Assembly: GCF_000317125.1 (NCBI RefSeq)
Contig: NC_019695.1
Location: 422,336 to 486,335, forward strand
Source of the DNA: Chroococcidiopsis thermalis PCC 7203
Lineage (GTDB): Bacteria; Cyanobacteriota; Cyanobacteriia; Cyanobacteriales; Chroococcidiopsidaceae
DNA length: 64,000 nucleotides
Direction: 5' to 3'
Position 1 is the first letter of the stretch. Every line of letters begins with the position of its first letter. Made by a program: the position numbers and the translations under genes. Under the pieces are notes generated by a model. The model searched no databases, had not been told where the DNA came from, and saw only the letters and a list, made by a program, of their open reading frames with translations. This document shows positions 40,728 through 49,182 of the stretch, piece by piece.

Positions 40728-43700
40728 TTAAATCGCCACAGCGATCGCACCTGCTAAAGCAGCAAAGAATGCCGAAACTGTTGCCGTACCAAACAACCAC
40801 CAAGCAGCTGAAGCCGCCGCCTTGCGCGTCTCTTCCGCTTGCTTTTCTGCCTGTTCTTTTACTTGCTCCAATCGCTTCTGTGCTTCGTGCTGAATGCGTT
40901 CTGCTCTTTGCAGCACGTTGTTACGCGCCGACTCAATTCGATCGATAATTCGATTCGCATCCGCCTCCGAAATATCCTCGCGGGAACTCAAAATCGCTAC
41001 ATAAGTATCTCGATTAAACGAAGATAGCCGTCCGCGCAAAGCATCAAACCCAGCTTGCGGGTCGTCAAATAACTTGCGCATATCCCTCTGAATGCTGTCG
41101 TAATTCAACTCTGGGCGATCGAGCGAATTGAGATAGCTGCGAATGCGCTCGAATACGCTGTCGATCGCATCTTGAATCCGCCGTTGAATGGCTCGTACCT
41201 GATCGACAAAATTATCGCGTACAGCTAATACCTGATCGACAGTTCTAGCTGCTTCCGCATCGGACATATCACCCCGCATCTTCAACAAGTCAATTAACGT
41301 CTCGCGATCGAAGTGAGACAAGCGATCGCTCAAACTCTCAATTCCCACTTTCGGATCGCGTAACAACAAAGACAAATCCCGCTTAATGCCTTCTGGATTG
41401 AGTTCGTCTTTACCTGTATGACGTAAATACTCTTCCAAATAAGTTTGGAAACTCTGAACTCTTTGTTGCGTGCGAGTTGCCAGACGACGGGGCGCTTTGA
41501 TAATATCCCGAATCGAAGTTTGCATTTGATCGACAATTTGGTTGACTTGCTCCTCGCTCAAATCGCGCCGCTGGCTCAATAACTTCACCAGGGTTTCTCG
41601 ATCTACGTGAGACAAGCGCCTTCTGAGGGCTGCCGATCCCTCTTTCGGATTGGCAAACAAGCGCTGAAAGTCGCGCTGAATTCCTTCTGGATTCAACTCT
41701 TCTCTACCAGTGTTGCGCAGGTAATCGGCGATCGCATTCGTCACCGAGTCGTATTGTTCCTTCGCTTTACCCACCAAAACTTGCGGTGCAACCCGCACGT
41801 TGTGCCAAGACCCCTCAACTTGGTTAATAACTTGGTTGATCTGTTCTTCGCTCAAGTCTTGGCGCTGATTTAACAGTTGTACCAGGGTTTCGCGATCGAA
41901 GCGAGACAACCGCGCCCTTAGTGCTGCCATCCCCGCTTGCGGATCTTCTAGTAAAGTCTTCAGTTCAGCCTCAATTGCATAGGGATTCAATTCATCTCTG
42001 CCAGTGTTACGCAGGTAAGATTCCAAGTTCAGCCACAGGGTTTCAGCTTGATATTTTGCCTGGTCTGCCAGTCCTTTAGACTCAACTAAGACTTTTTCGC
42101 GCTGTGCCTCCAACCGATCTAAAATTGGCTCTATCTCTTCTGGGGTAATATCGTTACGTTGCAATAGGACTTGTCGCAACGAGTCCCGATCCCACCTAGC
42201 TAGACGCAAACCAAGAGTTTCGTAATCGACATCCGAGTCTTCTAATAACGGTTTGAAGTTACGCTCAATTCCTTCTGTAGTTAAGTCTGCTTTACTCGTT
42301 GTCAGTAGATAACTCTCTACACGGTGCTGGAGTTCTTGGACGGCTTCCCTTTCTTCAATACCTCTTACTGTGGTCAAGACATCTTGACGAATCAGTTCCA
42401 AGCGATCGGCTATAGTTTGAATTTGAGCTTGGGTCAGCATTCCCTTTTGTTGCAACAATCGGGCAAAATCGTTGCGAGAAAGTTGCTCGATCTGTTGCCG
42501 GACTGCTCGTGGATCGGCTGCTGGATCGTAGAGAACGTCGCGGAATTCCCGATCCATCCTGTCTTGACTTAATTGCCAAGTATAAGTGTTGAGCAGGTAG
42601 TTTTCTACATCCGCCCTAATGGTCGTGTAGGGAACTTCAGCAGATTTCATTCCTGTTTGAGTGGCAACCTTGTCTACTCCCTCGGTGACTTTATCTCTAG
42701 CCGTGAGGAGCGATCGCAAGATCTTCTCCACATCTAAATCTGATAGATCGGCACGTCCCATCACCATTCCCATCAGGGTGTTGATTCCCGTTTGCAGCGT
42801 TTGCTGTACTGGACCTGCGGTGGCTTTGTCGGCTTGGTCTGCTTGTCTTTGGTCGGCTTGCTTAGACGATCGCATTTCTTCTGTGAGTCGATCGATCTTG
42901 GCGTTCAACTCGTCCGTCCTAGTTTGTCCCGGCTGCACGGACTTGAGGTATTCGATCAACTCATCCATGCGATCGCGTTTGGGTTGTTGGTTCGCCACCA
43001 CCTCCCGCCAGACGCTTTCTAACTGATCGGCAATTTTATTGACTTCACGTTTTGATAAATCGGTACGGCTGCTGACGAGATCGATAAACTTTTGGCGATC
43101 GATATTCCGCAAGTCATCGGTTCCGGCAAGATCTGCCAGTTGCGGATCGCGTAAAATTGTCTCAAATTCTCTTCTAATCTTTGTCGTGTCCATCTCTGGC
43201 GGACGCAGCATGTCTATATAATCTTCCAGGTTCTCGCGAATTGTCGTCGGGTCGATCGCGCTACCTAGTTCTCGCCGCACCGCCGCAGCTGCCGCTTCTG
43301 CTGTCTGTACGACTTGCTGATTGACAGCTTTTGCTCCCATAGCAGCAGTAGCCGTTCCCATAATTGCTTGAAAACCCGAGGTTGCCGTATTCACGACAGA
43401 ACCAACCAAGGAACCGACTGTGGTGGAACTAACCCACACCAGTAGTAAAAAGTAAGCTCCCCAAATCACTAGACCGAGAACTGCTCCCAGTCCTACATCT
43501 ACGCTCAGCAGGCTTAAACTAACGGCAAGAAAGCTAGCGATGAATAGAGCAATGCTGACAGTTATTAACGTCCAAATACCTACTGCCGTACCAATTTTAC
43601 GGATCGTTCCCCCCACACTCCCAGATTCGCTGCTACCTGAATCTGAGTCTGATTGCCGTCCTAAATAGGAAATCCCAGCAGCCACAGAGAGGTTTGTTAA

Positions 43701-43880
43701 TACAAGTTGTACGGCAAAGGCAAGAATCACTCCTGATATTAAAGCAACAAAAAATCTCGGACCCGAAAATACAAACGCTGCCTCTGCTGGTGTCGTCACA
43801 CCCCCATCTGGTGGAGTTAACTGTGCCAGCCAGGAGAAAGGTTTATATAGTCCCAGTAAAATTTCTGGATTCTGAAACAT
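40728..43880 (-). CDS. Giant membrane protein with seven ~100-aa helical repeats
   Basis: 1050 residues from ATG 43880, preceded by AAGGA. The N-terminal ~190 residues have three or four membrane helices. Then come seven repeats of about 95-105 residues, each with a YL.NTG..ELNPEGI.RD helix, an L[LF].DP..G..ALR.RLS.[FV]DR[ED]TLV.LL...R.D[LI]SE.. core and a final long helix. The last four are closest to each other. A basic coiled region (EQAEKQAEETRKAAASAAW) and a C-terminal membrane helix close the protein. I do not recognise a named domain; it looks like a membrane-tethered helical rod. Monocistronic. Confidence 0.85.
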   Translation of the reverse strand: MFQNPEILLGLYKPFSWLAQLTPPDGGVTTPAEAAFVFSGPRFFVALISGVILAFAVQLVLTNLSVAAGISYLGRQSDSDSGSSESGSVGGTIRKIGTAVGIWTLITVSIALFIASFLAVSLSLLSVDVGLGAVLGLVIWGAYFLLLVWVSSTTVGSLVGSVVNTATSGFQAIMGTATAAMGAKAVNQQVVQTAEAAAAAVRRELGSAIDPTTIRENLEDYIDMLRPPEMDTTKIRREFETILRDPQLADLAGTDDLRNIDRQKFIDLVSSRTDLSKREVNKIADQLESVWREVVANQQPKRDRMDELIEYLKSVQPGQTRTDELNAKIDRLTEEMRSSKQADQRQADQADKATAGPVQQTLQTGINTLMGMVMGRADLSDLDVEKILRSLLTARDKVTEGVDKVATQTGMKSAEVPYTTIRADVENYLLNTYTWQLSQDRMDREFRDVLYDPAADPRAVRQQIEQLSRNDFARLLQQKGMLTQAQIQTIADRLELIRQDVLTTVRGIEEREAVQELQHRVESYLLTTSKADLTTEGIERNFKPLLEDSDVDYETLGLRLARWDRDSLRQVLLQRNDITPEEIEPILDRLEAQREKVLVESKGLADQAKYQAETLWLNLESYLRNTGRDELNPYAIEAELKTLLEDPQAGMAALRARLSRFDRETLVQLLNQRQDLSEEQINQVINQVEGSWHNVRVAPQVLVGKAKEQYDSVTNAIADYLRNTGREELNPEGIQRDFQRLFANPKEGSAALRRRLSHVDRETLVKLLSQRRDLSEEQVNQIVDQMQTSIRDIIKAPRRLATRTQQRVQSFQTYLEEYLRHTGKDELNPEGIKRDLSLLLRDPKVGIESLSDRLSHFDRETLIDLLKMRGDMSDAEAARTVDQVLAVRDNFVDQVRAIQRRIQDAIDSVFERIRSYLNSLDRPELNYDSIQRDMRKLFDDPQAGFDALRGRLSSFNRDTYVAILSSREDISEADANRIIDRIESARNNVLQRAERIQHEAQKRLEQVKEQAEKQAEETRKAAASAAWWLFGTATVSAFFAALAGAIAVAI

Positions 43881-44296
43881 GGTTTTTCCTTCTTTTGTGC
43901 TGTGCTGAGCGTCTAAATACAATGTGAGGAGGAAATATAGGAGCTAAAAATACTATTTAACCCCGTAGCTTAAAAATGCTGCATTTAACAGCGTCAAACA
44001 TCCACCCCAAGTCTGAAAGCTCTGCCTGTAGTGGGATGAATTCAGATTTACTTCTGAGGCGAGTAAATGTATTCAGTAGCGTTTATGTACGTCAAGATAC
44101 TAATTACAAGTTGTTAACAATACCAAGCGATCGCTTCATCGCGATTTACACCGTCTATTGATAGAATTCCTCCTGAAAAATTCACTTTATATTAGTCCTA
44201 GAGAAGTGCTGCTAGTTTGTACCTCTAGACAGAAAGCAAGAATTAAATTCCCCTTTAAATTAAAGATATGTGAAGCGGCTTTATTAGGAGCAAAAA
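43881..44296. other. 416-nt intergenic region before the Hlip gene
   Basis: Divergent promoter region. A 61-codon ORF at 43976-44161 has no ribosome binding site or family and was not accepted. No repeat of the families above is present; the last 100 nt are AT-rich and contain the Hlip promoter and TTAGGAGC ribosome site. Confidence 0.5.
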
Positions 44297-44637: not shown

Positions 44638-45738
44638 TTACAACACTTTCGGTAAGCGAAACCAGAACTGCGCTCCCCCTTGAGAATTGGTTTTATAGCC
44701 GATACTTCCACCCCACTGCTCTACTGTAATTCTACAGAAATATAGCCCTAAGCCAATTCTTCCCGGTCTATTTTTGCCTTGGGAAAACTTTTGAAATAAA
44801 GTTGTAGCGATTTCTGGTTCTATGCCAGAACCCATATCGTCAACTGCGATCGTCATGAAATCTCCCTCTTCTGCGATCCCAATTGTCACCGCAGAGTTTG
44901 GTGGACTGTGCCTGTAGGCGTTTTCTACCAAGTTCGTTATCGTTCGCTCCAGACGTGACTTTTCTCCTACAACTTTCCATTCTCTGGTTTTATCAACATC
45001 GATTTGTAGCCGTAAATCGATCTGATTGAGAAAGAAAACTGGTGATAAAGCATTCACAACTTCTAAAACGCAAGCTAGCGCATCTGGTGCTTGTTGTGGA
45101 TCGTTTCCCACCCCTTCCAAAATCTCAATTTCAGCTGCAAAAGCATCTAAAATTTCTCGAATTAATGTCTCTTGTTTTTGACACTGCTTTTTACCAATAT
45201 TTAAGTATTCTTGCGCTTTAGAATTAAGGTTTTGGAGTGAGAGTAGCTCGAAACAATACTTGATTCCCGTTAACTGTCCGGCTAGATCGTGAACGATACA
45301 ATGAATTAATACTTCTTTTTTTTGAATTTCTTTTAACAAATTGTAGTAATTTAAACTGTTTTCTCTGGCTTTTTGGAGTAAAAACTGATGCTCTTTATAA
45401 TTAGAAGCAATTAATAATATTTTTTTCTCATTTAGACAAACTGCTGAAGCCTCTAAATAAAATTCTTGTCCTGATAAGTCCGTTTCCGTCCACAGTCCAG
45501 ATTTAATTCTTCCCGATTGATGTTTCTGCCAAAAGGCTTCTGCGTCGATCAAAAAATTATCGAGTACGGGAAATTTATGTCCCGGCATCAACTGTTGTTG
45601 TAAGTCAGTATCTCCATAAAATTGTACGAACCAGATAGGTGCAGTACCGATGAGCTTGAATGAATCATACTCCAATCGTTCTAGAACAACGACATTTAGT
45701 GCCGCAAATAGCTCATCTATGATGCTTTCCTCGCTCAT
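44638..45738 (-). CDS. Soluble histidine kinase, last gene of the OmpA-GTPase operon
   Basis: 366 residues. A PAS-like N-terminal part (about 1-110; APIWFVQFYG, FYLEASAVCL) leads to a DHp helix with His150 in HCIVHDLAGQLTGIKYCFELL, and a complete HATPase domain: N-box LVENAYRHSPP, G1 VDDMGSGIEP, G2 GRIGLGLYFCRI. No membrane segment and no receiver domain. The start overlaps the stop of the cyclase-like gene by 4 nt. A response regulator is not in the window, so the phosphate target is unknown. It may read the state of the GTPase or cyclase-like partner. Confidence 0.9.
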   Translation of the reverse strand: MSEESIIDELFAALNVVVLERLEYDSFKLIGTAPIWFVQFYGDTDLQQQLMPGHKFPVLDNFLIDAEAFWQKHQSGRIKSGLWTETDLSGQEFYLEASAVCLNEKKILLIASNYKEHQFLLQKARENSLNYYNLLKEIQKKEVLIHCIVHDLAGQLTGIKYCFELLSLQNLNSKAQEYLNIGKKQCQKQETLIREILDAFAAEIEILEGVGNDPQQAPDALACVLEVVNALSPVFFLNQIDLRLQIDVDKTREWKVVGEKSRLERTITNLVENAYRHSPPNSAVTIGIAEEGDFMTIAVDDMGSGIEPEIATTLFQKFSQGKNRPGRIGLGLYFCRITVEQWGGSIGYKTNSQGGAQFWFRLPKVL

Positions 45739-46754
45739 GCTACTAAAAACGTAAAGATAGGGATTGGTTCGCTAGCAATGTCTTTAGATATAGTATGACT
45801 TCTCCTGAAGCGAGTTTGCATCTCACCGATGCGATCGTATGTGTTGCGATCGATCGCGATCGCGTTAGGAGTTGCTTGAAATCCTAGCTGTTCTACAATT
45901 GCCATGCGATCGCCAACAGCAATCAAAGTTTTTTGATTCTGACTACCAGTAATACCCACAATCAGGGAACCAGAAACAATACTGATGCCGACACTAAATG
46001 CAATGCATTTATCGACTTGCCGCACCTGACTCATCTCTCGTACTATTTCTACAACTCGGATCGCTGCTTCAATCGCACGCACCGCAGGCGAACCAGTCAC
46101 TGGAAGTATGCCAAACAAACTTGTCACAGCATCCCCAAAACCTTTACTTACTATCCCACCTCGATCTAGTAACGGTTGCACGATCGTGGAAATATATGAG
46201 TTGAGAGTGGCGATCGCTTCTGCTGGTGGGTAATCTTCAATCGAGGAGTTGAGGCTGCAAATCTTAGCTAATAAAACAGTCACATCTCGGCGATCGCCTT
46301 TCTCTAATACCGCTACTAATTCCTCAGATAAGTTGGCTGCAACGCGATCGTGTAGGCTTTGTTCTAACAAGCGAGAGTGATGTTGGCGAATTAAACTCAA
46401 ATCGTTGCCTTGTTGCTGAAGGATGCTGTATTGATGTTCGTATCGACTTGCATCCAGTAATAGTATCCAGTCACCTTCATCTGTAGAGAAAATGTGAACC
46501 TCGGCAGCAACTCCCGACTCCATTTTTATGCAAGGTAAGATAATTGGCAAGTTCCGAAAGGGTAGCAATCCCGCTAAAAATAAAATCTTTTTTTCAACAA
46601 TTTCTCCTCGTTCGAGATGATGCAATCCATACAATGATAATTGACCTCCCCAGCTCACTAAACAGCCATCCTGCACTAAAAAGTAAGCCGGACAACGACT
46701 TTCAAAAATTGACTCTTGAAAGTACTTGGCTATGGATCTAGGGAGGTGAGACAT
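45735..46754 (-). CDS. Cyclase-homology (class III) protein lacking a metal Asp
   Basis: 339 residues. N-terminal about 100 residues are PAS-like; a short coiled coil (about 115-150) leads into a class III nucleotide cyclase domain (about 155-335). The first metal-binding Asp of the VTVLFAD.. strand is Lys164 here (VTVLLAKICSL), whereas the second is kept as Asp208 (KGFGDAVTSLFG). VGISIVSGSLIVGITGS and AVGDRMAIVEQL match the rest of the fold. Loss of the metal Asp predicts an inactive cyclase used for binding or signalling. It overlaps the GTPase gene by 17 nt and the kinase gene by 4 nt. Confidence 0.88.
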   Translation of the reverse strand: MSHLPRSIAKYFQESIFESRCPAYFLVQDGCLVSWGGQLSLYGLHHLERGEIVEKKILFLAGLLPFRNLPIILPCIKMESGVAAEVHIFSTDEGDWILLLDASRYEHQYSILQQQGNDLSLIRQHHSRLLEQSLHDRVAANLSEELVAVLEKGDRRDVTVLLAKICSLNSSIEDYPPAEAIATLNSYISTIVQPLLDRGGIVSKGFGDAVTSLFGILPVTGSPAVRAIEAAIRVVEIVREMSQVRQVDKCIAFSVGISIVSGSLIVGITGSQNQKTLIAVGDRMAIVEQLGFQATPNAIAIDRNTYDRIGEMQTRFRRSHTISKDIASEPIPIFTFLVA

Positions 46755-47253
46755 CCATTGCCTCCAGCATTTGTTGTGTGAGTTTGGCGAAGGCTTCTTC
46801 TACCCCTGTAGCCGTTTTAGCACTAGTCTCGATCGCCGTCCAGTTTTTCTGTATAAGACTATCCACTACTGAATCCTCTATTTCCCAATCACCTGTTAAA
46901 TCTGATTTATTCAATACCAATATAAAAGGAACTTTACCAATAGTTTCTTCTACCCTTTGTTGTAAAGATAAGGCTTTATCTAAAGTATAACGACGGGTTC
47001 CATCCACGACTAAAAAATAACCAGATGCACCTCTTAAATAAGACATTTGCAATTTCTGAAACTCGTCTTCGCCGTGGATATCCCACAAAATTAGATTGAC
47101 CTCTCTATCGCCAATTTTAACTAGTTTCTTATCAATTTTCACTCCTACGGTAGAATGGTATACTTCTGAGTAAATACTTTTAACGAATTGCGCTACTAAA
47201 CTCGTTTTTCCCGTAGCAAACGCACCGACCATACATATTTTTTTTTGAATCAT
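46738..47253 (-). CDS. Rab/Ras-like small GTPase
   Basis: 171 residues, a free-standing small G protein. G1 VGAFATGKTS (10-18), G2 region SEVYHSTVGVKI with Thr35, G3 LWDIHGEDEFQ (Asp58; the catalytic Gln position is Glu62), G4 NKSDL (115-118), G5 ETSAK. Eukaryotic-style Rab organisation without C-terminal prenylation Cys. Bacterial relatives (MglA, Rup) work with Roadblock-type partners. Its upstream gene (21 nt away) encodes an OmpA protein with what looks like such a domain, and its downstream genes overlap it, so it is probably the switch of a signalling unit. Confidence 0.92.
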   Translation of the reverse strand: MIQKKICMVGAFATGKTSLVAQFVKSIYSEVYHSTVGVKIDKKLVKIGDREVNLILWDIHGEDEFQKLQMSYLRGASGYFLVVDGTRRYTLDKALSLQQRVEETIGKVPFILVLNKSDLTGDWEIEDSVVDSLIQKNWTAIETSAKTATGVEEAFAKLTQQMLEAMDVSPP

Positions 47254-47274
47254 ATCTCAAACAGCAAATTTTTT

Positions 47275-49182
47275 CTAGGGTGCATCCGTTAAAAATACCT
47301 TAAAAGAAACGCGACGATTCATTTCTCGATTGTTTTGGCTAGCTTTTTGTTGCCAAGGTTCTTGCGCTCCCACGCCAATTGTCGTTAAATCAGAAGCTCT
47401 GATTCCTTGCGAAACCAAGGTTGATAAAATTTGCTTTGCTCTAGCTTGACTGAGAGACATATTATGCTCGGTCGAACCATCGCTATCTGCGTGTCCTTTA
47501 ATTTCAATGCGTACATCCTTATTCACAATTGGAGCTATCTTTGTGAGTTTTTGAATAGCTGCAACGACCTTTTCTAATTTCTGTTGCTGATTTGGTAAAA
47601 GCTGCGGGCGATCGTTAACAAATAAGAGAATTTCTCGTTCTAATTCAGTTTTAGTTTTGAGCAATTCTTGAAGTTCAGTTTCAGTCAGATGCTCTGTCTG
47701 TAACTGCGTCACTCCAGGGAGATTAGGCGCAACTTTTTTTGCTTGCGCAATCCACTGTCGCGGTGCAATACCAGTCATATAAAGAACGCCATTGCGATCG
47801 ACTTTCAAACTCGTGGTTTTTGGTGGCTGTAATAATTTTTCCGCTCTTTTCGTAACAAATTGCGGCTCTAGAGAGATGTAAGGTTGCCAACGACTGACAA
47901 CATTTTTAGGATCGATCTCTGCATCTGAGATTAATTGAATGGGGTCAGCAGCCAACGGATCGCGCAATCCCGATATATAGTATTTGCCAAAATGACTATC
48001 AGCACTGACGACAACTATTCCTGCTTGCAAGTTTAATGTATTTAAATATGCCTGCCACTTTTGTCGGGCTTGAAAAGACATAAAACTCCACCATCCCAGC
48101 GTACACAAGAGTCCGCCGATCAATAATAATAAAAGCGGTGAAGGTTTATCTGAAGTTGTTTGATACTGGGATTGAAGGCAATTTTCTAAATAAGATTTAC
48201 TGGCTTCAAATGGAGTATCGTCGCCGCGAAAATTCAAAAGTGGCTGGTAAAATTTCTTATGAATTGTTTCTAGGGTGGCTTGAAAGTTTTCTCTTAATTC
48301 TTTGGGTGCATTACCGCGAATTATGCCTGCTAAAATTGCTTGGGGACCTTGCTCGATCCAAATCGTCAATTCGCCAAATTCTAGTGCGTCTAACCGATCT
48401 TGTTGCTTAACCTTAAACGAATCTTGCACGAAATCTTGAATTGCTTTTAACATAGCTGCAACCAGATCTGCATCTTGTGTAGCAGTCGGATCTACTGCCA
48501 AGCTATGTAACAACAGTCCAGTCTGACGATGAATCAAAAAAACTTCTTCTACCCGATAAACTAGCGTTCGCAGCAAGACAACTTCGGCAAAAGACTTACC
48601 AGTTTGCATTGCTTCTAAGCGCCAGCGAAAACTCCTTGGGGTTAAGCTATGATCGAGTGCTTGATTAAAGGTGGCAACAAAAGTTTTCAGTGCTGCCATT
48701 GCAGCTTTGCGGCTAGCAGGTCCGATGATGGGAAACAAAGCATCGGACAGCGTATTCAAGTCTCTTCTAACAGAGGTTTGAATTGCTTGTTCTACAGTTG
48801 GGACGGCGGCTTGAGTCAGTTGGTCGTCCTGTAATGACCTGAGAATAATCGCCTCTGGCAAAACCCGACTCACATCTTCGACTCGGAGTTGCGATTTATC
48901 GAGTTTTGCTTGGAGTTCGGGACCGAAAAGTAAATCCCGTAATTCGGCGATCGCTTCCTCTTCGGTAGTAAAATTCTTGTGGGGCGGTGGTTGCGATCGC
49001 GCTGTTGGTGTCTGTGGCTGTTGCTCCAATACTATCTGACGCAGTTGAGCTAAGACTTCTACTTCAGCAGCAGTGAGATGGGTGTCTTGCGATCGATCCA
49101 ACAGACTCTCTAGCTCAGTCAGTGCCTCAGCTTCAGAGCTTGAAGTTCTGTCAGTAGATTGGCGACGAGAAGAGTCAGTCAT
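47275..49182 (-). CDS. OmpA-family protein with cytoplasmic longin/Roadblock-like domain
   Basis: 635 residues. N-terminal 345 residues are cytoplasmic and helical; about 205-320 read like a longin/Roadblock fold (VFLIHRQTGLLLHSL, DLVAAMLKAIQDFVQDSF, LTIWIEQGPQAILAGIIRG). One membrane helix at about 349-368 (PLLLLLIGGLLCTLGWWSFM). The periplasmic part has a BON-like repeat region (LKVDRNGVLYMTGIAP) and a C-terminal OmpA/MotB domain with RIEIKGHADSDGSTEHNMSLSQARA and NRRVSFKVFL, which binds peptidoglycan. It thus joins cell wall and cytoplasm. First gene of the operon with the GTPase, cyclase-like protein and kinase. Confidence 0.87.
   Translation of the reverse strand: MTDSSRRQSTDRTSSSEAEALTELESLLDRSQDTHLTAAEVEVLAQLRQIVLEQQPQTPTARSQPPPHKNFTTEEEAIAELRDLLFGPELQAKLDKSQLRVEDVSRVLPEAIILRSLQDDQLTQAAVPTVEQAIQTSVRRDLNTLSDALFPIIGPASRKAAMAALKTFVATFNQALDHSLTPRSFRWRLEAMQTGKSFAEVVLLRTLVYRVEEVFLIHRQTGLLLHSLAVDPTATQDADLVAAMLKAIQDFVQDSFKVKQQDRLDALEFGELTIWIEQGPQAILAGIIRGNAPKELRENFQATLETIHKKFYQPLLNFRGDDTPFEASKSYLENCLQSQYQTTSDKPSPLLLLLIGGLLCTLGWWSFMSFQARQKWQAYLNTLNLQAGIVVVSADSHFGKYYISGLRDPLAADPIQLISDAEIDPKNVVSRWQPYISLEPQFVTKRAEKLLQPPKTTSLKVDRNGVLYMTGIAPRQWIAQAKKVAPNLPGVTQLQTEHLTETELQELLKTKTELEREILLFVNDRPQLLPNQQQKLEKVVAAIQKLTKIAPIVNKDVRIEIKGHADSDGSTEHNMSLSQARAKQILSTLVSQGIRASDLTTIGVGAQEPWQQKASQNNREMNRRVSFKVFLTDAP

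Follow-up and report, generated by a model that had tools for sequence, protein, structure and literature searches.

What kind of signalling system is built when a wall-binding OmpA protein, a Rab-like small GTPase, a degenerate cyclase and a histidine kinase are encoded side by side? This question is raised by a 64,000-nucleotide (nt) stretch of the Chroococcidiopsis thermalis PCC 7203 genome (NC_019695.1, 422,336-486,335), hereafter the window, in whose positions coordinates are given below unless another locus is named. Four open reading frames (ORFs) follow one another on the minus strand in the order OmpA protein (635 amino acids (aa), 47275-49182), Rup GTPase (171 aa, 46738-47253), cyclase-like protein (339 aa, 45735-46754) and histidine kinase (366 aa, 44638-45738), and every feature placed within them below is on that strand. 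A spacer of 21 nt separates the OmpA gene from the GTPase gene, which overlaps the cyclase-like gene by 17 nt, and the latter overlaps the kinase gene by 4 nt; these distances had been given in an earlier note on this DNA and are reproduced exactly by the ORF coordinates. The four genes form a real operon. Its identity as a Group 1 Rup GTPase signalling module is well supported. The best explanation of the locus as a whole, to which we give roughly even chances, is a Group 1 Rup module with a wall-tethered longin platform and effectors that carry Gln-bearing domains, a reading based on gene content, gene order, co-occurrence, invariant residues and a domain fusion together with predicted folds.

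Group 1 Rup GTPases were described in 2014 (Wuichet and Sogaard-Andersen, 2014; PMC4316618). The group has a G3 motif without Gln and was placed very near Rab/Ras/Rho/Ran. Its gene neighbours encode a coiled-coil protein and a protein whose unknown domain often precedes a transmembrane (TM) helix and an OmpA domain, and its output is a GGDEF/EAL protein or a kinase with an invariant Gln in the N-terminal region (PMC4316618). In the authors' proposal the GTPase receives a Gln in trans; as of 2014, according to the same text, no Rup GTPase had been characterised and the Group 1 GTPase-activating protein (GAP) was not known (PMC4316618). The C. thermalis operon shares these traits. Its GTPase has Glu62 (47068-47070) at the Ras Gln61 position of the alignment and no G3 Gln, and beside it is encoded a protein with a further domain, a TM helix and an OmpA domain. 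Both output proteins carry a Gln in their N-terminal part (Gln122 of the kinase, 45373-45375, and Gln114 of the cyclase-like protein, 46413-46415), equated with the published residue by its description, and the genome encodes a coiled-coil protein, likewise equated with the 2014 family by description.

The operon matches the 2014 account, and the earlier note's statement that no system of this composition had been described is therefore wrong. What stands of its interpretation is the longin fold, as a prediction, and the degenerate cyclase. Its list of four parts was right but incomplete, as it overlooked a fifth, coiled-coil part elsewhere in the genome and the invariant-Gln domains that precede the cyclase and the kinase. 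The system differs from the 2014 description in that the coiled-coil gene is unlinked and not in the operon's neighbourhood, and in that there are two Gln-domain proteins, one of which carries a decayed class III cyclase as a fusion; among the relatives collected here, sigma-54 activators, HD and SpoIIE domains are found as further outputs. The domain left unknown in 2014 is here given a predicted longin fold. A literature search, mostly of open-access papers and judged from the listed results, found only the 2014 paper to cover this gene cluster and none that names a longin domain in it. The new content is the predicted longin domain, the two N-domain subtypes, the decayed cyclase and a docking motif, and the longin fold and part of the wiring appear new.

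Is the arrangement peculiar to C. thermalis? A profile of OmpA residues 100-335 gave at least 504 matches in genome contigs, and the best 80 were kept. By their record titles 55 of these are cyanobacterial and 25 are not, the latter labelled as Acidobacteria, Nitrospirota, Deltaproteobacteria/Desulfobacterales, Chromatiales, Ghiorsea, Dehalococcoidia, Latescibacterota, Coatesbacteria, Delongbacteria and others; each of the 25 comes from a metagenome assembly, for which taxon labels can be wrong. With 15 further loci they make up a set of 95, chosen by the OmpA protein and called type A, which contains at least three genomes twice (L094/L113, L095/L130 and L097/L152) and yielded an OmpA frame in 93 loci (none from L172 and L178). 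For 83 type A loci the sequence extends more than 3.5 kb on the downstream side; 74 of them have a GTPase gene no further than 150 nt away on the same strand, and the number rises to 77 if the distance is extended to 4.5 kb. A protein with an N-domain of C-type (as in the cyclase-like protein) or H-type (as in the kinase) follows in 77 of these 83, and both types are present in 53. The coiled-coil gene stands directly upstream of the OmpA gene in 84 of the 87 type A loci whose sequence reaches more than 1 kb in that direction, the exceptions being L061 and L062, from the C. thermalis genus, and L101. This gene adjacency is more than chance. The same order recurs across phyla, so the possibility that the four genes are adjacent only in this strain, one of two outcomes named by the earlier note as refuting its reading, was rejected; the other, the lack of a longin-like fold in the cytoplasmic part of the OmpA protein, was not borne out by the predicted structure. 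A second, divergent form (type B) is found in other genomes of the phylum and has 22-28% identity to the domain of the OmpA protein discussed here.

Co-occurrence across the phylum extends this picture. The longin-OmpA profile has matches in 25 of 194 genomes, and in a draw of the same size GTPase matches at E <1e-20 fall in the same 25 genomes, by comparison of the listed genomes (Fisher P 5e-32). Weaker GTPase matches in 30 further genomes, many inside long frames and the strongest at E 3e-15 (G150), are taken as other GTPases. The coiled-coil gene is present in all 25 genomes at E 6e-24 or better; its profile also matches 13 others, the best being G003, where stops interrupt the gene (E 1e-31), followed by G104 (E 7e-16) and eleven genomes with E >1e-7. 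C-type and H-type N-domains are each found in five of the 194 genomes, all among the six with a type A operon. This co-occurrence does not come from adjacency alone, because two of the genes are unlinked. In C. thermalis the coiled-coil gene (L189:6795-7403; G000:C1:5651794-5652402) lies at 5.65 Mb of a 6.3-Mb contig and the operon at 0.47 Mb, and the H-type kinase of G230 (G230:C1:4313661-4314080) is more than 3 Mb from the operon at 0.73 Mb. The C. thermalis coiled-coil gene is near genes which, recognised by eye, we take to be psaA/psaB-like.

How could a GTPase that has no catalytic Gln be switched off? The GTPase matches Pfam Ras at E 5e-32, and its best-scoring solved relatives are Rabs, with Rab23 first (E 2e-23). 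Across 87 type A rows the G3 residue is Glu in 81, Asp in three, Thr in one, Ala in one and a gap in one, and never Gln. An invariant Gln is found instead in the N-domains, in 68 of 68 C-type and 76 of 79 H-type sequences (two gaps, one Arg) and in all 17 type B outputs scored, four of the 21 genes next to type B GTPases belonging to other families. The N-domain sets were gathered with profiles seeded from the C. thermalis domains (C-type 46359-46754, by profile and model; H-type 45319-45738, by profile) and include duplicate genomes. In the model Gln114 sits on the helix after the first domain of the cyclase-like protein, and by hand count the Gln is at an equal distance from the last strand in C-type, H-type and type B domains. 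The type B profile aligns with the joint type A profile (probability 71%, P 4e-5). On a Delongbacteria contig (L179) one protein comprises a C-domain, an H-domain, PAS and HD, and this single fusion suggests that C- and H-domains act together. The C-type N-domain is PAS-like in the model, where the strand-helix order fits PAS, and the structure search barely probed this part. A strong hhalign match of type B N-domains to canonical PAS was an artefact of two overlapping input stretches, and the stand-alone N-domain of L105 had no Pfam match.

The output domains vary among relatives while the N-domain persists. In 44 scanned members (42 of 75 H-type proteins, the H-type gene of L162, and L158, which carries a C-type domain) we found HATPase_c in 33, EAL, GGDEF and sigma-54 activator domains in four each, HD_5 and receiver domains in two each and SpoIIE in one. 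In C. thermalis the histidine kinase core (44647-45297) has a clear HATPase_c domain (E 8e-22), a HisKA match that is weak and below the HisKA cut-off (E 8e-4), and H, N and G boxes. Since this core appears intact, an ordinary two-component sensor with merely co-transcribed neighbours, the GTPase being unrelated, could be envisaged. However, such a view is already contradicted by the phylum-wide co-occurrence, which includes the C- and H-type N-domains: the GTPase, longin-OmpA and coiled-coil genes are found together in 25 of 25 genomes, and both the recurrence of the gene order across phyla and the N-domain that outlasts changes of output argue against it as well. We consider it very improbable indeed.

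What, then, does a cyclase do in this operon? The cyclase-like protein has a degenerate class III cyclase-like domain (45738-46307), recognised by Pfam, alignment, model and structure search, with a Guanylate_cyc match that is sub-threshold (E 3e-4; 20.7 bits, under the 21.9 cut-off). In its model a PAS-like domain is followed by a long helix and then by a class III cyclase fold (cyclase Z 23.6). The degeneracy previously read from the letters, Lys164 (46263-46265) in place of the first metal Asp, agrees with the alignment, in which Asp208 is kept and the transition-state Asn/Arg positions are changed. Judged from alignment and model, the protein probably retains the class III fold and lacks what activity requires. 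Among 12 full-length cyclase rows both metal Asp are present in L161, L166 and L176, L155 has Glu at the first, and eight, including C. thermalis, lack the first. The 60 C-type genes in the 83 loci include 18 with a recognisable cyclase domain and 36 of only 100-149 aa, that is, an N-domain alone. The N-domain is the part kept, and a regulatory role for the cyclase-like protein is therefore indicated. Separately, L166:7274-8311 (Guanylate_cyc E 6e-24) and L176:6225-7256 keep both metal Asp and have no H-type output gene found nearby, and the output of these loci may be a cyclic nucleotide.

On the membrane side, the OmpA protein comprises an N-terminal helical region, a longin-like domain, one TM helix, a BON-like stretch (seen by eye only) and a C-terminal, peptidoglycan-binding OmpA domain (residues 521-623, 47314-47622; Pfam PF00691, E 3e-17). 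Hydropathy marks one hydrophobic segment in it, starting about residue 350, which gives a single TM segment at about residues 350-368 (48079-48135). Residues 70-340 were modelled by AlphaFold2 with 58 alignment rows, and the model begins with a helical part, after which strands and helices succeed one another in the longin order b-b-a-b-b-b-a-a, with a core at 209-333. A longin/Roadblock-like domain, which the earlier note had suspected at about residues 205-320, is thus predicted at residues 207-340 (48163-48564) by AlphaFold2, Foldseek and VIA-align. Strands 1, 2, 4 and 5 and the last helices have a predicted local distance difference test score (pLDDT) of about 77-89 by block, and helix alpha-1 ranks with the best-conserved elements (0.85 for type A and 0.73 for A and B together). 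Foldseek gave four matches at E 0.001 or better, and the 50 listed (E 3e-4 to 4e-3) are mostly from entries with longin/Roadblock subunits, such as adaptor complexes, TRAPP, Ragulator, MglB and SNAREs. In VIA-align the longin of Sec22b scored Z 13.4 (121 aligned, 2.7 A), chain A of the Rab23-Fuzzy-Inturned entry 9rs9, judged from its length to be Fuzzy, Z 13.3, a TRAPP subcomplex chain Z 13.1, an archaeal Roadblock protein Z 11.4 and MglB Z 11.1. A Pfam search of the OmpA protein returned no longin/Roadblock match. We put forward the fold class as a prediction and do not claim homology, because sequence-profile comparison gave no convincing link.

The appearance of MglB among the structural matches raises the alternative that the longin-like domain is itself the GAP, as MglB is for MglA, in which case the N-domain Gln would be structural (e.g., a helix-dimer contact) and the N-domains plain readers of the GTP state. 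MglB stimulates GTP hydrolysis by MglA (PMC4316618), and a search of the C. thermalis genome for a Robl_LC7 partner elsewhere (PF03259, E 0.001) came back empty, which leaves the longin-like domain as the sole candidate of its fold class found. However, longin proteins outrank MglB among the structural matches, and MglB positions a Gln that belongs to MglA (PMC4316618), whereas this GTPase has none and the invariant Gln is located elsewhere in the operon. We think this alternative unlikely. A different alternative draws on conservation: the cytoplasmic half of the OmpA protein has 46-61% identity and the OmpA domain 27-45% (eight loci outside the genus, both aligned over more than 70 residues). 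The protein could be a wall-linked landmark only, placing the GTPase and its effectors at one cellular site and so providing polarity, as with motility machines, without sensing, and with the kinase switched by local GTPase concentration, and MglA is indeed a polarity regulator (PMC9481161). The retention of one TM link between the wall domain and the longin domain, where a simpler landmark is possible, is a weak argument to the contrary, and we regard a pure landmark as a doubtful account.

The coiled-coil protein is tied to the OmpA protein by a common motif, LRDLLFGPE at OmpA residues 81-89 (48916-48942). The nine-residue LRxLLxGxE-like pattern is found in 93 of 105 coiled-coil proteins, 57 of 118 OmpA proteins and one of 1262 other frames of the same loci, and in none of 25 type B OmpA proteins. 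In the C. thermalis genome the motif profile ranks the coiled-coil gene first (E 7e-13), followed by the OmpA gene, itself a profile row (E 4e-9); the next best matches are at E 0.05 and 0.9. A family-versus-family comparison in which the motif was not preselected aligned the N-terminal 160 residues of OmpA at the same place with modest support (P 7e-4), and more weakly with a shorter OmpA stretch (residues 70-194; P 0.024). Such a pattern of sharing suggests that the motif may be a docking site.

How might these parts work together in a Group 1 Rup module with a wall-tethered longin platform? The OmpA protein would be held in the cell wall through its C-terminal domain and cross the inner membrane once, leaving the longin-like domain in the cytoplasm, where it most likely binds the Rup GTPase and sets its location or nucleotide state. 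In this way a cell-wall signal might reach the GTPase. The GTPase, without a catalytic Gln of its own, would be read by two soluble effectors through their Gln-bearing N-domains, the C- and H-types probably pairing on one GTPase. Of these effectors the histidine kinase would give the actual output, and the cyclase-like protein would serve as a regulatory subunit without catalysis. The N-domain Gln may also complete GTP hydrolysis, so that effector binding would terminate the signal as well as transmit it. The coiled-coil partner, with its putative docking motif in common with the OmpA protein, probably competes with the latter for one site or joins it there.

Several observations weigh against this reading. 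No GTPase was found within 4.5 kb in six of the 83 type A loci, six of the 83 have no N-domain of either type, and no GTPase was seen in the examined stretch of two of 25 type B loci (L082 and L085); six of 22 type B GTPases have Gln at the G3 position. Confidence in the longin model is modest (mean pLDDT 68.6, predicted template modelling score 0.50), block pLDDT is only about 51-64 in strand 3 and in helix alpha-1, and the root-mean-square deviation exceeds 10 A in several of the Foldseek superpositions. In hhalign comparisons with 25 Robl_LC7 stretches, of which at least one (L202) is in the wrong frame, the A+B profile aligned in register at P 0.006 with a probability of 6%, and type A alone gave P 0.07, with values of 0.04 to 0.56 for unrelated controls. 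When OmpA residues 70-340 were searched as a profile against Protein Data Bank (PDB) sequences, no longin was found, and the one match was a phage tail protein at E 0.08. The comparison of C-type and H-type profiles was not convincing (probability 2.6%), and kinship of the two would rest on the Gln register and the fusion. Binding between the parts, GAP action and the direction of signalling are steps that we infer. Additionally, the tri-longin mechanism of Rab guanine nucleotide exchange factors (GEFs) uses a switch-1 Lys or Arg after a conserved Tyr (PMC12383261), and this mechanism was rejected here as the basic residue is absent: the position is His in 41, Gln in 34, Leu in eight, Met in two, Tyr in one and a gap in one of 87 type A GTPases, and Leu in 22 of 22 of type B. 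A GEF of the tri-longin kind thus appears unlikely from the residues, and the longin domain, if it is an exchange factor, must therefore act by another mechanism; service as an anchor or as a GAP is the other possible role for it.

What would such a module mean for known GTPase systems? MglA-MglB(-RomR) of Myxococcus and the actinobacterial conservon CvnA-D have the same three elements, a Ras-like GTPase, a Roadblock/longin-class partner and a two-component link (PMC4316618). MglB and CvnB are separate Roadblock proteins, whereas here the partner would be part of a wall-anchored OmpA protein in a genome without a Robl_LC7 match, and the kinase here has a Gln-bearing N-domain. Eukaryotic Rabs with longin GEFs (TRAPP, Mon1-Ccz1 and Fuzzy-Inturned) resemble the operon in joining a Rab-like GTPase to a longin-fold partner, predicted in our case; they differ in the switch-1 basic residue, absent here, and the likeness rests on predicted fold, not on sequence homology. 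Group 1 Rup was placed very near Rab/Ras/Rho/Ran (PMC4316618), and a longin-fold partner therefore bears on the origin of the Rab-longin pairing. We regard as improbable a further reading, in which a complete Rab-longin switch operates at the bacterial cell wall, with a dedicated longin-fold membrane partner, exchangeable effectors and paired N-domains giving the missing Gln in trans. Were this so, the pairing of Rab with longin proteins in eukaryotic membrane traffic would find its equivalent in bacteria, perhaps through shared ancestry, and a "Gln finger" common to two proteins would link the reading of the GTPase by its effectors to GTP hydrolysis. The longin domain and the two Gln N-domain subtypes are specific, testable candidates for the partner and GAP roles in Group 1 Rup.

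Some minor features of the locus can be added. The hydropathy scan also marks stretches that start at residues 58 and 250 of the cyclase-like protein and at residue 220 of the kinase; we take them as buried, the one from 250 falling within a modelled strand. Counts of promoter-like sites (15 versus a mean of 11.5, standard deviation 3.3) and terminator-like sites (9 versus 5.1, standard deviation 2.4) were not informative. Downstream, a 1064-aa protein (40728-43922) has several hydrophobic segments and repeated helical units. It was rejected as a part of the system: it is found downstream on the same strand in 26 of the 95 type A loci, but matches 35 of 194 genomes, several without Rup. In one genome of the same family that has no longin-OmpA/Rup matches (G003:C45:19956-24866), a coiled-coil gene with several stops stands beside a homologue of the 1064-aa gene, an arrangement that would result if an intervening operon had been deleted.

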